From assembly GCA_007859745.1 (NCBI GenBank), contig SMLU01000001.1, forward strand, positions 2,480,001-2,544,000: a stretch of 64,000 nucleotides of DNA, written 5' to 3'. This DNA comes from Phycisphaerae bacterium RAS1. GTDB taxonomy: Bacteria > Planctomycetota > Phycisphaerae > UBA1845 > Fen-1342. Positions 16,240 through 38,426 of this stretch are shown in pieces. The number at the start of each line of letters is the position of its first letter. Position 1 is the first letter of the stretch. The position numbers were made by a program, and so were the translations under genes. The notes below the pieces were generated by a model. That model did no database searches, had not been told where the DNA came from, and was given only the letters and a program-made list of their open reading frames with translations.

Positions 16240-16921
16240 GATCGGCGATGTTTACCAGCAGCGGGGCGAATACGTTTAACTTACGCTGCCGCAGACCCGC
16301 GAAACCGGCCTGCTCGATCATGCCGCGGAGCGCCGACCAACTGGCGTGATGCACCTGCCCTTCGGCCAGAGTCACGCCCACGTCGAAAACGAACCAGCCG
16401 ATCACGTTGTCCCGGAATCCGTCGACCAGGATGAGCCGTCCGCCGGGCCGCAGAACGCGGTGAAACTCGCGAACCGCCGCGCGCTGCTGCGGATAATGAT
16501 GAAATGAGTTGCAGCAGGTCACGATGTCAAACGCGCCGTCGGCAAAGGGCAACCGTTCGGCATCGCCGTTGACGACGTGCAGCTTGTCCGCGCCGTCGGC
16601 GGCGATCTTCTCCGCCGCACGGCCGACCATCGCGGCCGAAAAATCAAGGCCGACGAGCCGCTCCGCCGCCGAATCGCGGGCCAGCAGCGTGATGAGCGAA
16701 GCCGTGCCGCAACCGACGTCGAGCAGGCGGTAGCGCGTCGAACCGCGGCGGGACTTCCAGCGCGCGATTTCCTCCATGCAGATGCGGATGGATGGGAAGA
16801 AAACCAGCTCGTTCAGCCACGAGCGATCGTAGGAATGGGCCCAGTGGTCAAACTGGCGGCGAGCGGAATCTTTGGCGGCCGGCTGGGGCATGTCCGTCAA
16901 GGTCTCGTTTTCGGGGACCAT
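16235..16921 (-). CDS. class I SAM-dependent methyltransferase
   Basis: The methyltransferase-11 type Rossmann domain is clear: motif I LLDVGCGTASLI, then LVGLDFSAAMV, VNGDAERLPFADGAFDIVTCCNSFHHY and HRVLRPGGRLILVDGFRD, as in UbiE-like enzymes. The 228-residue length is normal. The substrate is unknown. The start is uncertain: ATG 16921 is used here, while ATG 16891 (MPQPAAKDS) is possible; the frame also extends to 16993, but that part is palindromic repeat. The stop codon lies in a REP element. Confidence 0.85.
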   Translation of the reverse strand: MVPENETLTDMPQPAAKDSARRQFDHWAHSYDRSWLNELVFFPSIRICMEEIARWKSRRGSTRYRLLDVGCGTASLITLLARDSAAERLVGLDFSAAMVGRAAEKIAADGADKLHVVNGDAERLPFADGAFDIVTCCNSFHHYPQQRAAVREFHRVLRPGGRLILVDGFRDNVIGWFVFDVGVTLAEGQVHHASWSALRGMIEQAGFAGLRQRKLNVFAPLLVNIADR

Positions 16922-17013
16922 CGGCGTCCCGCCGATGCGCACCGGCGGGACGCGGATGCTCCCCGCGCGAAAACTGAAATCGCCGTCGGACACGCAGGTC
17001 CGACGCTACAGGT
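16917..17013. repeat. palindrome (family of 35698) plus single REP
   Basis: The palindrome at 16917-16964 has arms ATCGGCGTCCCGCC and GGCGGGACGCGGAT around a GTGC/GCAC-like centre. The same element lies at 35698-35746. A single inverted REP (GGTCCGACGCTAC) ends near 17010. Confidence 0.75.
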
Positions 17014-32933: not shown

Positions 32934-33896
32934 CTACTTGCCCGCGGCATTCGCGGCCGCGTTCTGTTTCTTCATCTCTTCGTACTTCTTCTTCAGGTCG
33001 GCGTCGAGCACGCGCACGTCGGCCTTGTCCAGCAGCTCGGTCAGGAGCTTTCCGCGCAGCTCGTCGGTCACGCGCTCGCGCATGCCCGCCAGCACCTGCT
33101 CGCGGACATCCTCGAAACGCACGTCCGCCGGCGAAATCCGCCGCTCAAGCCGCAGAATATGCACCATGTTCCCGGTGCGGATCGGCGGCGAGACCTCGCC
33201 CGCCTGAAGCGCGAACGCCGCCTCGCGCAGCGCGGCCGGCAGCGACTCGTCCTTAAAACTGAAGGGCGCCATCAGCCCGCCGCCGGCGGCGTCCGGATTC
33301 TGACTGTAGCGCTGGACCACCGTTGCAAAGTCCACCTGATTCGCCAGGGCGTCCACCGCTTTCTGGAGCGTTGCGGCGTCGCTGGCGGCCACCTGCACAT
33401 GCCGCACCTCGGCCTTCTCGCCCAGCGTGCGCGCGAACTCCTCGCGCAGCGTCTTGTCGTCGACGCGAAAGTCGGCCTCGGCGACCTTCCGCAGGTGCGC
33501 GTTGCGCTCCATTCCCACGCGGAATTCGGCCATCGAGATGTTTCTTTGCTCCAGCAGCATGGTCAGCGCCCGCTGTTTCTCATCGGCGTTCAAATCGACG
33601 CCGGCGGCGTCGCGCTGCGGCGAGATCTTCTTCACCGCCCGGTCAAACTCGAGCTGAATATCGGCTTCGGTGACCGCCAGTCCGCGCCGTCCCGATTCCT
33701 GGCGGGCCAGCTCCAGCGCCACCAGTTGCTGCAGGGCCGCGTACCCGTGCGCCTGCATGACCAGGTCCACCACCTGCTGCCGGGTGATGGGGCGTCCATT
33801 GATCAGGGCGATGGCATCGCCGTCGGCCTTGGCGCAGGGGCAGGCAACCGCGGCAAGCAGCGTTTGCGACACGACGATGATCCTGAGCCAGTTCAT
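32934..33896 (-). CDS. parvulin-type peptidyl-prolyl cis-trans isomerase
   Basis: A 320-residue exported protein with signal peptide (MNWLRIIVVSQTLLAAVACPCAKA), a helical SurA_N-like part, and a PpiC rotamase domain (EVRHVQVAASDAATLQKAVDAL, FATVVQRYSQNPDAAGGGLMAPFS, REAAFALQAGEVSPPIRTGNMVHILRLE). It probably helps fold periplasmic or outer-membrane proteins. ATG 33896 has GGAG eight bases upstream; an in-frame ATG two codons earlier is too close to that site. It is divergent from the signal peptidase genes, a sensible export-related neighbourhood. Confidence 0.88.
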   Translation of the reverse strand: MNWLRIIVVSQTLLAAVACPCAKADGDAIALINGRPITRQQVVDLVMQAHGYAALQQLVALELARQESGRRGLAVTEADIQLEFDRAVKKISPQRDAAGVDLNADEKQRALTMLLEQRNISMAEFRVGMERNAHLRKVAEADFRVDDKTLREEFARTLGEKAEVRHVQVAASDAATLQKAVDALANQVDFATVVQRYSQNPDAAGGGLMAPFSFKDESLPAALREAAFALQAGEVSPPIRTGNMVHILRLERRISPADVRFEDVREQVLAGMRERVTDELRGKLLTELLDKADVRVLDADLKKKYEEMKKQNAAANAAGK

Positions 33897-34020
33897 GCTC
33901 ATCACTCCGGGCCGCCTTGAGGGTCCTGGGCCGCGCCGATAGTCTAATGACTGACGCCCGCGTTTGGGGGGCCGATCCCCGGCCCGTCCCGCGGCGCCAG
34001 CGTTTGAACGAAGGACCCGC

Positions 34021-35667
34021 GTGAGCCAGCTTTCCACCCCCGCCGCCGGGCGAAGCCCGACCCGCAAGGAGAGCATCTACGAGCAGATTGCCTCATTCGT
34101 GATCTTCTTCATTCACCTGCTCGTGCTGAAGACCTATTTCCTGCCACTGTTTGTGATTCCCACCGGCTCGATGGCCGAGACGCTTCGCGGCGTCCACATC
34201 TGCACCACGTGCAAGAACTGCGGCACCGACTACGCCGTCGGCGCCCGCGACCCGTCGCTCAACCGCCAGCGCAGCGGCGACCTGATGTTCTTCGGCGACC
34301 CGCCCTGGGCCATGAGTTGTCCCAATTGTCGCTGGCTGCAATTCCTGCCGCGGGCCATGCCGCAGGCGCCGCGCGGCAACACGCTCGAGGCCATCCCGGC
34401 CGTCCGCGCCGGCGACCGGATCGTGGCGCACGCGTGGCCTTATGACTTCGGCGGAGCGATCGGCCCGCAGCGCTGGGACGTGGTCGTCTTCAAGGTCCCC
34501 AAGGACGGCACGACCAACTACATCAAGCGGCTGATCGGAATGCCGAATGAGAAGATCGAGCTCATCGACGGCGATCTTTTCGTCAACGACGGCATTCAGC
34601 ACAAGACCGCTGAAGCTCAGCGATCGCTCTGGTTTCCCTACTACCGGCACGATTTCCCCGCGCGCGAGGCGTCCGGGCCAAACAACTTTCATCCGCGCTG
34701 GGCCGCGCGCGGCGCCGCGTGGAAGGATGTTGCGACACGCGTCGTGCGATTCGATGGAGCGCAGTCCGACCGCGGCGAGATCGAATTCGTCACGACGCCC
34801 GGAAGCGACCAGGGGCCCGGGCTGATCGAAGACGTCTACGGCTACAACGACCCGTCCGCCGAGACGCAGGGCGGCCGCGTGCTGCTGCCGGAGACCGCGA
34901 TCGGCCGCTGCATCGTGACCGACACGCGGCTCTCATGCGACGTGCTCTTCGAAGACGGCGACGGTTATGTTGAATTGCTCACGAGCAAGTACGACCTGAC
35001 GCTCGCCGGGCGGATCTATCGCGACGGCCGCGTCGTGCTCAGCGCGCAGCGCGAAAGCGCAGCGCCCGTGACCTGGGACGAAGGGCGCGTCAGCGTGGGA
35101 AGTAGGCCGCTGCGCGTCGCGCTGGCAAATGTCGACTACGTTGCATCGCTGAGCGTCGACGGGCGCGAGATCGTAGTGTCGACTGCCGAGCAGTTCTCGA
35201 TCACGCCTGGCGCGGCCCGAGAGCGGCTCACGTCCAAGGTCTCGCCGCGAATCCGCATCGCCGCGGAAAAAGTGCGCGCCGCCTGCTCGCACTTGCTCAT
35301 CGAGCGTGACGTGTTCTATGCCTCCTCCAGCCCCTTTGCCCCCGGCCAGCTCTTCAACGGAGTCGCGGGCAATCCGATCACGCTTTCCAAAGACCAGTAT
35401 TTCGTCTGCGGCGACAACAGCCCCAACAGCGTGGACAGCCGTTGGTGGGGAACGGCCGTGGGCGGCGTCCCCGGCGCCCACCTTCAGCCGGCGCTGCATC
35501 GCAATGATTACCAGGTGGGAACCGTGCCGGCCGACCAGATGGTGGGCCGGGCGTTTTTTGTCTACTGGCCGGGATTTCTGCCCGCCGTTCAGGAAAGCGG
35601 CAATCAGCCGTTGCCCTGGTGGCTGACGATTCTCCCCGACGTGGGGCGCATCCGCTGGATACACTAG
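34021..35667 (+). CDS. lepB: enlarged signal peptidase I with zinc-ribbon insert (paralogue 1)
   Basis: The S26 serine protease core is present: one N-terminal membrane helix (~23-45), catalytic Ser50 in IPTGSMAETL, Lys169 in TNYIKRLIGMPNE, and the late GDNSPNSVDSRWW. At 548 residues it is about twice the E. coli-like core. Extra sequence between helix and lysine holds CTTCKNC and CPNC, a probable zinc ribbon, and ~250 residues of beta-rich insertion lie before the GDNS box. GTG 34021 was chosen for the AAGGA seven bases upstream. The gene is followed by a second paralogue 124 bases on. Confidence 0.9.
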   Translation: MSQLSTPAAGRSPTRKESIYEQIASFVIFFIHLLVLKTYFLPLFVIPTGSMAETLRGVHICTTCKNCGTDYAVGARDPSLNRQRSGDLMFFGDPPWAMSCPNCRWLQFLPRAMPQAPRGNTLEAIPAVRAGDRIVAHAWPYDFGGAIGPQRWDVVVFKVPKDGTTNYIKRLIGMPNEKIELIDGDLFVNDGIQHKTAEAQRSLWFPYYRHDFPAREASGPNNFHPRWAARGAAWKDVATRVVRFDGAQSDRGEIEFVTTPGSDQGPGLIEDVYGYNDPSAETQGGRVLLPETAIGRCIVTDTRLSCDVLFEDGDGYVELLTSKYDLTLAGRIYRDGRVVLSAQRESAAPVTWDEGRVSVGSRPLRVALANVDYVASLSVDGREIVVSTAEQFSITPGAARERLTSKVSPRIRIAAEKVRAACSHLLIERDVFYASSSPFAPGQLFNGVAGNPITLSKDQYFVCGDNSPNSVDSRWWGTAVGGVPGAHLQPALHRNDYQVGTVPADQMVGRAFFVYWPGFLPAVQESGNQPLPWWLTILPDVGRIRWIH

Positions 35668-35697
35668 TAGTGCATCACGCGCTCGCTCTCGCACCGG

Positions 35698-35746
35698 GAG
35701 CATCGGCGTCCCGCCGGTGCGCACCGGCGAGACGCCGATGCTCCCC
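35698..35746. repeat. palindromic element, same family as 16917-16964
   Basis: GAGCATCGGCGTCCCGCC pairs with GGCGAGACGCCGATGCTC around GGTGCGCACC. It lies between the two signal peptidase genes. Confidence 0.75.
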
Positions 35747-35791
35747 GAAATCCCGATCGCGACGAGGCGCCAGGACCGTCGCGGCTCCGCG

Positions 35792-37381
35792 ATGGCAGAC
35801 TCGAAACAAGCACCGCGCTTCGTGACACCCGACCTTCCCTCTCATCCCGACGACCCGACCCCGGACAGCGCTGGAGAATTGTGCGCTGCGGAGCCAAATG
35901 CGTCCGGCGCTGCCGAAGCGCGCGAGTCGCCGGCCCGGACGCTCGCCCGAATTGTCGAAACATCGCAGACTGTCCTCACCGGGCTGATCCTGGCGTTCGT
36001 CTTTCGCGCTTATCAGATTGAACCCTTTATGATCCCCACCGGGTCCATGGCCGAGGCGCTGTGCGGCTCACATACCACCCAGCTCTGCCGCGCGTGCGGC
36101 TGGGAGTACAACTCGGACGTGATCAGCGCCGACCGCGAATCGCGCCGCCGCATGGCGCCGGATCAGCTTTTCTGTCCGAACTGCCACCTGCGCGTCTCAG
36201 CGGAAGAGGCCGCCCCGACGCTCAAGGCCGGCGACCGGATCGTCGTCCACAAGTGGTGCTATGATCTGCCCTTTTTCTCCCCGCAGCCGTGGGATGTGAT
36301 CGTCTTCCGCGATCCGGCCAATTCGCAGCAGAACTACATCAAGCGCGTCGTCGGATTGCCGGGCGAGACGGTCGAGATCGTCGATGGCGACGTGTTCGTC
36401 GATGGGCGGATTCGCCGAAAGACCCGCGCGGCGCAGGCGGCGCTCTGGTCGGTGGTCTTCGATCAGTCCTTCGCGCCATCGCCCGAGGCCCAGTCGGGCA
36501 AGGCGCCCCGCTGGGTCAGCGACGCCCAGCCCGCCGGCGGCGCGGATTCGGCGTGGACCGGGTTGGACTCACGCGTCATCCGCTTTCAGCCCACGGACGG
36601 CGCGGCGCACGCCATTCGCTTCAACGCCGAGGCCAGCCGCGAGTACCTGCTGGATGTGTGCGGCTACGACCGCGGCTCGTCGGGCACGCCGGTCTCGGAC
36701 GTGCGTCTCAGCGCCGCTCTCACGCGCAATCCACAGAGCAGCCTCGAGTTCGAGTTGACGCGCGGCGAGCACGTGTTTGTTCTGGCGTTGACCGAAGATC
36801 ATGCGACGTTGCGGCACAGGCGCACCGACGTCGATCCCGCCGTTGACGAGACGCTCGCGGAGTGCCGCGTCCCGTTTTCCCTCTCCGCGACGCGCCAAGT
36901 CGAGTTCGAGCACGTCGATTACCGCGTCGCCGCCCGCATCGATGGCCGCGAGTTGCTGGCGTCGCGCGACGAGCACTACGCGCCGGACCTCGCCGGGCTG
37001 CGGCGCGAGAGCGGCGGAAAGGCCGTCGCCTTGTGCATTCGCGCCGAGGGCGGCCGCGCCCGGCTGGAGCGCCTGCGGCTGGATCGCGACGTTCACTACA
37101 CGTACACGCCCGGCCGCACGCGCCGCGCTCACGCCGGCAATCCGTTCGTCCTGGCGGCTGGCGAGTTCTTCGTGCTGGGCGATAACAGCGCCGACAGCCA
37201 CGACGGCCGCGAGTGGTTCGAACGCTCGGTGAATCTGAATGATGGCTATCGCCTCGGGACCGTGCGGCGCGATCAGATTGTCGGGCAGGCAGCGCTCGTG
37301 TATCTTCCGGGACTGACGCCCGTGGTTTCCGGCGGCACGGCGCGAATGCCGGACCTTGGTCGTGTCCGGTTCATCCGCTGA
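35792..37381 (+). CDS. lepB: enlarged signal peptidase I with zinc-ribbon insert (paralogue 2)
   Basis: The 529-residue paralogue of the preceding gene has an ~50-residue acidic N-terminus before the membrane helix (TSQTVLTGLILAFVFRAYQI), then Ser85 in IPTGSMAEAL, LCRACGWEY and FCPNCHL (ribbon cysteines), Lys184 in QNYIKRVVGLPGE and the GDNSADSHDGREW box. The inserted beta-rich region matches paralogue 1 in outline (RVIRFQPTD, REYLLDVCGYDRGSSG, VEFEHVDYRVAARIDGRELL) but is diverged. ATG 35792 avoids the palindrome upstream. Two different processing specificities are plausible. Confidence 0.9.
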   Translation: MADSKQAPRFVTPDLPSHPDDPTPDSAGELCAAEPNASGAAEARESPARTLARIVETSQTVLTGLILAFVFRAYQIEPFMIPTGSMAEALCGSHTTQLCRACGWEYNSDVISADRESRRRMAPDQLFCPNCHLRVSAEEAAPTLKAGDRIVVHKWCYDLPFFSPQPWDVIVFRDPANSQQNYIKRVVGLPGETVEIVDGDVFVDGRIRRKTRAAQAALWSVVFDQSFAPSPEAQSGKAPRWVSDAQPAGGADSAWTGLDSRVIRFQPTDGAAHAIRFNAEASREYLLDVCGYDRGSSGTPVSDVRLSAALTRNPQSSLEFELTRGEHVFVLALTEDHATLRHRRTDVDPAVDETLAECRVPFSLSATRQVEFEHVDYRVAARIDGRELLASRDEHYAPDLAGLRRESGGKAVALCIRAEGGRARLERLRLDRDVHYTYTPGRTRRAHAGNPFVLAAGEFFVLGDNSADSHDGREWFERSVNLNDGYRLGTVRRDQIVGQAALVYLPGLTPVVSGGTARMPDLGRVRFIR

Positions 37382-37667: not shown

Positions 37668-38426
37668 ATGCTCTTGGAAGCACAGAATCTCGTCAAAGCA
37701 TACAACGGCCGGACGGTCGTCAGTGATGTCTGCTTTTCCGTGAATGAGCGCGAGATCGTCGGGCTGCTCGGACCCAACGGGGCTGGAAAAACCACGAGCT
37801 TTCGCATTACCGTGGGCATGGTGACGCCCGAGGGTGGCTCGATTCGCTTCGACGGACGCGACATCACCGAGCTGCCCATGTACAAACGCGCCCGCCGCGG
37901 CATGGGCTATCTCACGCAGGAGCCGAGCGTCTTTCAACGCCTCTCCGTTGAAGAGAACCTGATGGCCATCTGCGAAACGCTGCGGCTCAGCCGAGCGGCG
38001 CGGCGCAAGAAGGTTGACGAGCTGCTCGAGCAATTCGGCCTGACGCACATCCGCAAGAGCCCGGCGCGGGTCGTCTCGGGCGGCGAGCGGCGGCGGGTCG
38101 AGATCGCCCGCTCGCTGGTGACCAGCCCGCGGCTGATCCTCCTCGACGAACCCTTCAGCGGGCTGGATCCGCGCATCGTCGAAGATCTCCGCACGGAAAT
38201 CGTCAAGCTGCGCGACCGGGGAATCGCGATTCTGCTGACCGATCACAACGTTCATGAAACTCTGAAGGTCACCGACCGCAGTTACGTCATCGACCAGGGC
38301 CGCGTCATCAGCGACGGCACGCCGGCTAAACTGATCAACGACCCGCTCGTCCGCCAGCGCTACCTCGGCAACACGTTCCGGGGCGACGAGTTCGGCCCGG
38401 ACGGCGGAACGCGCGCCGCGGGATGA
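37668..38426 (+). CDS. lptB: LptB-like ABC transporter ATP-binding protein
   Basis: The cytoplasmic ATPase of the lipopolysaccharide export complex. Walker A GPNGAGKTT, Q-loop LTQEPSVFQRLSVEENL, ABC signature VSGGERRRVEIARSL, Walker B LILLDEPFSGLDP and the H-switch DHNVHETL are all present, with the LptB-typical order. Length is 252. No lptF/G/C neighbours are in this window. A generic branched-chain-type ABC ATPase is the alternative, but the SVEENLMAICE segment favours LptB. Confidence 0.88.
   Translation: MLLEAQNLVKAYNGRTVVSDVCFSVNEREIVGLLGPNGAGKTTSFRITVGMVTPEGGSIRFDGRDITELPMYKRARRGMGYLTQEPSVFQRLSVEENLMAICETLRLSRAARRKKVDELLEQFGLTHIRKSPARVVSGGERRRVEIARSLVTSPRLILLDEPFSGLDPRIVEDLRTEIVKLRDRGIAILLTDHNVHETLKVTDRSYVIDQGRVISDGTPAKLINDPLVRQRYLGNTFRGDEFGPDGGTRAAG

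Follow-up and report, generated by a model that had tools for sequence, protein, structure and literature searches.

Is a pair of enlarged signal peptidase genes a special device of one planctomycete, or its ordinary machinery for cutting signal peptides? Signal peptidase I is normally essential and an antibiotic target (arylomycins), and the question is raised by a window of 64,000 nucleotides (nt) from Phycisphaerae bacterium RAS1 (GenBank assembly GCA_007859745.1, contig SMLU01000001.1, positions 2,480,001 to 2,544,000 of the forward strand; coordinates below count from the first nucleotide of the window). Two open reading frames (ORFs) lie head to tail on its plus strand across a spacer of 124 nt, encoding signal peptidase A (34021-35667; 548 amino acids, GTG start with AAGGA just 5′ of it) and signal peptidase B (35792-37381; 529 amino acids, ATG start). 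A preliminary description, made from the sequence, had read them as tandem paralogues carrying a cysteine ribbon and diverged insertions that might give them different substrates or anchoring. Our analysis indicates that A and B are a phylum-level variant of signal peptidase I that is ordinary for its lineage. In the reading that we consider probable, they are housekeeping type I signal peptidases in which a lectin-fold domain would act as a scaffold or docking part, the ribbon would be structural and the pair would be partly specialised.

Catalytic core, insert and ribbon

Both proteins matched the Pfam family Peptidase_S26 (PF10502; 88.8 bits for A and 108.1 bits for B, curated cut-off 22.9) and the signal peptidase I model TIGR02227 (88.3 and 100.2 bits, cut-off 47), the Peptidase_S26 match of each being broken into more than one stretch by an insert. 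A sequence search of the Protein Data Bank (PDB) with A gave nine distinct matches, all of them signal peptidases and two of them maltose-binding-protein fusions; in the two alignments shown, matched stretches flank the insert on both sides. The ORFs and family scores bear out two tandem paralogues of 548 and 529 residues, and family scores together with conservation led us to reject a chance or frame artefact. A and B, which share 33% identity in alignment A1 (the window pair with 62 of the 80 ORFs collected), proved to be old, genuine paralogues. In the 5.50-Mb genome, which spans 7 contigs and is 99.18% complete, a search for Peptidase_S26 gave four matches, two each in A and B, and no further gene. 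No other type I signal peptidase was thus found in this genome, and on that ground we rejected the idea of a special paralogue alongside a normal LepB. Two matches to Peptidase_S24 (PF00717) at other genome sites lie in frames of 226 and 271 amino acids that are probably LexA-like regulators.

The catalytic motifs, read from the sequence and the alignments, are intact in both copies, as had been claimed for the Ser/Lys dyad and the GDN box. In terms of the boxes B to E of signal peptidases, A carries the catalytic Ser50 in PTGSM of box B (34168-34170), Lys169 in YIKR of box D (34525-34527) and GDN of box E at residues 464-466 (35410-35418), all on the plus strand. The counterparts in B are Ser84 in PTGSM (36044-36046) and Lys183 in YIKR (36341-36343), also on the plus strand, with GDN at residues 462-464; residue numbers of B start at 35795, leaving out the initial methionine. 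The invariance of Ser, Lys and GDN across the alignments is partly a matter of construction, because the filters that collected ORFs demanded the serine box and GDN, and in the second of two sets also the lysine motif; the scan of relatives used the serine box. Cysteines were no part of the filters.

AlphaFold2 modelled A with a mean predicted local distance difference test score of 88.2 and a predicted template modelling score of 0.89 from a 96-row alignment, leaving low-confidence loops at residues 85-90 and 290-293. Model B (87.1 and 0.85) was built from the same 96 proteins and is not fully independent of model A. The catalytic core of A superposes on Escherichia coli LepB with a VIA-align Z score of 15.4 (root-mean-square deviation (rmsd) 2.7, 158 residues aligned, 33% identity) and that of B with a Z score of 16.3 (rmsd 2.4, 156 aligned, 31% identity). 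SpsB of Staphylococcus aureus (4wvj) shares the same catalytic fold with A (Z 13.8, 141 aligned, 31% identity). Ahead of box B, models and sequence give each protein a single long, hydrophobic, transmembrane-like helix at its N terminus, at about residues 19-40 in A and 46-74 in B. The order in both is thus N-terminal helix, box B, CxxC...CxxC, boxes C and D, insert, box E and C terminus.

The insert between boxes D and E spans about 225 residues and is mostly beta in both models, somewhat shorter than the beta-rich stretch of about 250 residues first proposed. Foldseek of model A against the PDB placed carbohydrate-binding modules of family CBM66 first (E 1.1e-7) and the signal peptidase of E. 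coli after them. The insert of A (residues 206-433; 34636-35319, plus strand) aligns with CBM66 4azz over 153 of 165 residues (Z 16.5, rmsd 2.9, model residues 208-432) and with the ERGIC-53 carbohydrate-recognition domain 4ygb over 163 (Z 15.6, rmsd 2.9). That of B (36449-37099, plus strand) aligns with 4ygb over 165 residues (Z 14.9, rmsd 3.0) and with CBM66 4b1m over 149 (Z 14.2, rmsd 3.2). In both A and B, the two proteins that were modelled, the prediction for the insert is thus a concanavalin A (ConA)-like jelly roll, one common fold where diverged insertions had been suggested. The jelly roll resembles CBM66 of Bacillus subtilis and the ERGIC-53 domain over nearly the whole domain; it differs from them in that the likeness is one of predicted fold, at about 10% sequence identity, and in being spliced into a protease.

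These additions set A and B apart from the best known signal peptidases. E. coli LepB has its domain II inserted between boxes D and E, and we know of no ribbon between its boxes B and C. LepB (MEROPS S26A; 3s04, 1t7d) and the window proteins are alike in the Ser/Lys dyad, boxes B to E and the catalytic beta fold; A and B differ from it in having one predicted N-terminal helix and a ConA-like jelly roll as the insert between boxes D and E. SpsB has a single membrane anchor and, to our knowledge, neither a lectin-fold insert nor a ribbon.

The second addition follows box B with its serine. Between box B and box C there are 73 residues in A and 54 in B, a stretch that contains both CxxC pairs; the ribbon starts 9 residues past the nucleophile and its first cysteine stands 14 past it. 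In A the ribbon insert covers residues 59-128 (34195-34404, plus strand) with Cys64, Cys67, Cys100 and Cys103, and in B the cysteines are Cys98, Cys101, Cys127 and Cys130, in CRAC ... CPNC (36086-36184, plus strand). The models place the pairs at turns between strands 59-63/70-74 and 97-99/106-108 of A, and between strands 93-97/104-108 and 124-126/133-135 of B. As modelled, the insert of A has the usual look of a zinc ribbon, with two strand-turn-strand knuckles and a low-confidence loop (85-90) within it. All four cysteines are kept in 64/64 rows of alignment A1 and 96/96 rows of alignment A2. At least two CxxC occur within 120 residues past the serine box in 80/80 ORFs of the first set, and at least two past it in 94/94 ORFs of the second (from 78 of 80 loci); the two loci outside the second set, L106 and L133, also have both pairs. 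At class level, every protein read has the ribbon. Zinc-ribbon profiles matched weakly (E ≤ 0.1), with Zn_ribbon_4 found in 10/64 and Zn_ribbon_9 in 9/64 members. The ribbon-like segment described for both copies is thus upheld by alignments and models. The same genome encodes VKOR and DsbA-like proteins; VKOR and DsbA-type domains were found at C1:2761442-2763220 and C4:89728-90897, where the frames carrying them are of equal length (653 and 446 amino acids, respectively), apparently representing fused oxidative-folding proteins.

Distribution across Planctomycetota

The closest named relatives of A and B are Phycisphaerae and other Planctomycetota; a contig search with protein A alone gave no matches, and an alignment query found the relatives. 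Within a phylum sample of 199 genomes, Peptidase_S26 is present in 199/199. A profile of the architecture matched 179/199 at E ≤ 1e-20, where short peptidases of the ordinary kind may be counted in, and a homologue spanning the insert (profile position ≤147 to ≥456) is encoded in at least 125 of 199. The architecture is accordingly not peculiar to this locus and is largely the ordinary form in the phylum. Outside the class, many of the listed matches start past the ribbon, at about profile position 113. By sequence comparison, the lectin-fold insert is homologous beyond the class and more widely spread than the ribbon.

We read the ribbon region in 35 families outside the class, which were picked from reported matches and not at random. 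In 17 of the 35 the segment from box B to box C is 47-123 residues long and contains two or more CxxC, and in 13 it is short (9-21 residues) and contains none. In three more (f51, f69 and f71) the segment is long, with cysteines missing; f11 appears short, with a box C not matched by the pattern, and f56 was unreadable. Counted by ORF, this segment is long in 42 of 73 from the phylum (two or more CxxC in 39), short in 23 (CxxC in none) and unreadable in 8.

Individual relatives vary around this pattern. L203 (f71) has a ribbon-sized insert of 62 residues that has lost all four cysteines. Three members of f48 (L202, L222 and L228) have four CxxC between boxes B and C and two more between C and D, and L204 (f76) has two in each place. 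L193, L191 and L181 have no ribbon between boxes B and C and carry cysteine pairs between boxes C and D or within the large insert, as if ribbons had been added repeatedly. A motif-based tree (77 rows; its patterns missed 148/262 rows, including A of the window) was weak and we drew no conclusion from it; L151, scored as cysteine-less there, does have its cysteines.

The A/B pair and its surroundings

Both genes occur, at least in part, in 24/24 other genomes of the family, adjacent on one contig in 23; the sole exception is G214, where A and B lie apart. Other families of the order (16 genomes searched) mostly have one large gene, with two adjacent genes in G226, and no match to B was found in 4/120 genomes of the class. 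A tree of core columns used 209 of 231 rows, 22 having been dropped with less than 70% of core columns filled. It says little on gain or loss of the ribbon because the dropped rows include most of the ribbon-less ones. The A clade (35 rows) and the B clade (19 rows) received support of 99 and 98 in the Shimodaira-Hasegawa-like approximate likelihood-ratio test, and the join of A and B 86, a pattern most likely due to a single duplication in the ancestor of the family. Adjacent pairs in other families (f7-like, f30 and f24) are placed elsewhere in the tree; scattered in this way, they suggest that duplication is recurrent. In f30 (L197, L198, L200, L223, L231, L232 and L235) a deeply split second paralogue stands near the usual copy, with ISTGSM or ITTGSM as its box B, not IPTGSM.

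Downstream of the pair lies lptB, for the ATPase of the lipopolysaccharide (LPS) export ABC transporter (37668-38426, plus strand; TIGR04406 327.6 bits, cut-off 240). An lptB-like gene of at least 60% identity lies 3′ of the peptidase on the same strand at 26 or more of 80 loci, a lower bound because several other loci end soon 3′ of the peptidase; the gap between the two genes is often 300-500 nt. In the family it follows at 9/11 loci; the remaining two are L099, where A is followed by neither B nor lptB in the next 2.9 kb, and L104, which ends early.

Upstream, a gene for a parvulin/SurA-like foldase is divergent from A (32937-33902, minus strand; Rotamase_2 E 7.1e-13, Rotamase E 1.6e-10), as the preliminary description had noted. 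Among 25 family loci, tblastn (E ≤ 1e-3) detected the parvulin gene at the window's own locus and at 0/24 others (flanks of about 1.5 kb, some cut by contig ends); it was detected at 0/80 named loci (flanks up to 4 kb). Seven upstream frames chosen at seven family loci likewise contained no parvulin domain; they encode a lipid kinase, a diguanylate cyclase, two methyltransferases, a PKD-domain protein, a topoisomerase and an ABC ATPase. Considered as a functional partner, the foldase was rejected as a conserved neighbour on these results, and its position next to A looks incidental.

The spacer between A and B holds a palindrome of 25+25 nt (35696-35745), which a genome-wide arm search identified as a copy of an interspersed repeat, GCATCGGCGTCYCGCCGGTGC, with arms arranged head to head; the window has a second site at 16918-16959. 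With at most 2 mismatches the arms occur 143 and 137 times on the two strands of the genome, against 0 for a reversed control, and 4 times in the window against 0.05 expected. The element resembles repetitive extragenic palindromes (REPs) and bacterial interspersed mosaic elements. The genome has 20 Y1-transposase matches, 19 of them above the cut-off, which are possible REP-associated tyrosine transposase partners of the repeat.

Possible roles of the added parts

If A and B are housekeeping enzymes, each would be held in the cytoplasmic membrane by its one N-terminal helix, with the N terminus inside and with the catalytic domain, ribbon and lectin-fold domain on the periplasmic side. Going by the motifs, cleavage of signal peptides would follow the usual Ser-Lys mechanism and take place on the outer side of the membrane. 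The lectin-fold domain would most likely be a scaffold or serve in docking. The ribbon, presumably metal-bound, would most likely stabilise or narrow the mouth of the substrate groove by the membrane and probably stiffen the loop beside the nucleophile. The family-wide duplication would have yielded two partly specialised enzymes.

Several points weigh against this reading. The scaffold role is an argument from sequence conservation, periplasmic ribbons are unusual, and the grouping of A with B has moderate support. Because the genome encodes VKOR and DsbA-like enzymes, disulfides formed by the ribbon cysteines are a real alternative to zinc. Two large relatives that fell outside the ORF filters, moreover, have lost residues of the dyad. 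In L234, a second gene of genome G198 of the same class, PTGGM replaces PTGSM and FVQR replaces YIKR (Ser to Gly, Lys to Gln), with the CxxC pairs, the insert region and GDN retained. L224 (f71) has the serine box, YVSR for YIKR (Lys to Ser) and a degenerate cysteine segment; its insert region and box E are retained. In each of the two, several hydrophobic segments precede box B, and judged by their motifs they are possible non-catalytic receptors. They hint at an importance of the added parts that does not depend on cleavage, and they tell against seeing these parts as simple ornaments of an active site; on this account we lowered the housekeeping reading very slightly and raised, by half as much each, two alternatives in which the insert binds sugars.

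In the first of these, which we judge unlikely, the insert would function as a carbohydrate-binding module, either tethering the peptidase to a glycan of the envelope (LPS, S-layer or capsule) or picking out clients that are linked to sugars. The best fold matches of the insert are indeed carbohydrate-binding modules and L-type lectins, lptB is often a conserved neighbour, and both relatives with a damaged dyad still have the insert. Fold likeness alone is no proof of a binding function, however, and the ConA-like fold is common to many domains that bind no sugar. Across the 64 members, the 25 of 33 matched Pfam families that were shown include no carbohydrate-binding-module family, and the sole lectin-type match among them is Laminin_G_3 in 1/64 (E 0.044). 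Mean pair identity is 0.26 in the lectin-fold domain and 0.59 in the core. Residues 196-451 contain 24 columns that are more than 70% identical, and 11 of these lie at the insert junctions (200-214 and 424-433); this clustering fits a scaffold better than a fixed sugar site.

An alternative of similarly low probability is that A and B differ in substrates or anchoring through their inserts, as originally suggested. Since both copies, only 33% identical, are retained together in 24/24 other family genomes, some specialisation is likely, and sequence change is faster in the insert than in the core (mean pair identity 0.40 within A and 0.37 within B, against 0.66 and 0.69). Against a role of the inserts in this stands the single fold predicted for both. 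In addition, the ten columns that separate the clades (26 A and 15 B distinct rows, more than 80% conservation within each clade) correspond to A residues 26, 30, 33, 36, 37, 41, 42, 138, 516 and 519. They fall within the membrane segment, box C and the VYWP region close to the C terminus; neither ribbon nor insert contains any. This last argument is weak, because a faster-evolving insert seldom reaches 80% and the test is biased against it. Relative to 16 single-copy relatives of the order, A is derived at 33, 36, 37, 42 (E to P) and 138 (K to G) and B at 516 (W to L). By these data, the places where A and B may have specialised are the membrane segment and the entrance of the active site; the argument for the inserts as the cause of the difference is weakened by the common fold and the position of the separating columns.

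We regard it as more doubtful still that the four cysteines form a periplasmic redox or metal switch, in which oxidation or loss of zinc shuts the mouth of the active site. Such a switch would suit CxxC knuckles that begin 14 residues from the nucleophile, a genome that encodes oxidative folding enzymes, and the 65 readable ORFs of the phylum, in which CxxC pairs accompany 39/42 long and 0/23 short segments between boxes B and C. The ribbon is nevertheless absent from several lineages of the phylum, three long segments have lost CxxC pairs, and nothing points to regulation. A phylum-wide physical coupling of signal-peptide cleavage both to sugars of the envelope and to the state of zinc or redox, combining a working lectin domain, a gating ribbon, client-specialised paralogues and some dyad-less receptors, is very improbable, even with the slight gain from the dyad-less relatives.

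Among the papers listed by our searches of the signal peptidase literature, we found no description of this architecture in titles and abstract openings, or in passages of PMC2881027, PMC11131199 and PMC1586193. For Kuenenia stuttgartiensis, the passages of PMC2881027 list a single signal peptidase I and do not mention extra domains.

Much of this phylum, whose envelope is unusual, appears to rely on a signal peptidase rebuilt with a lectin-fold domain, and many of its lineages appear also to have a metal-ribbon-like loop at the mouth of the active site. The generic annotation 'signal peptidase I' conceals this rebuilt architecture. Should either added part prove functional, it would reveal how the phylum has re-engineered the processing of exported proteins.

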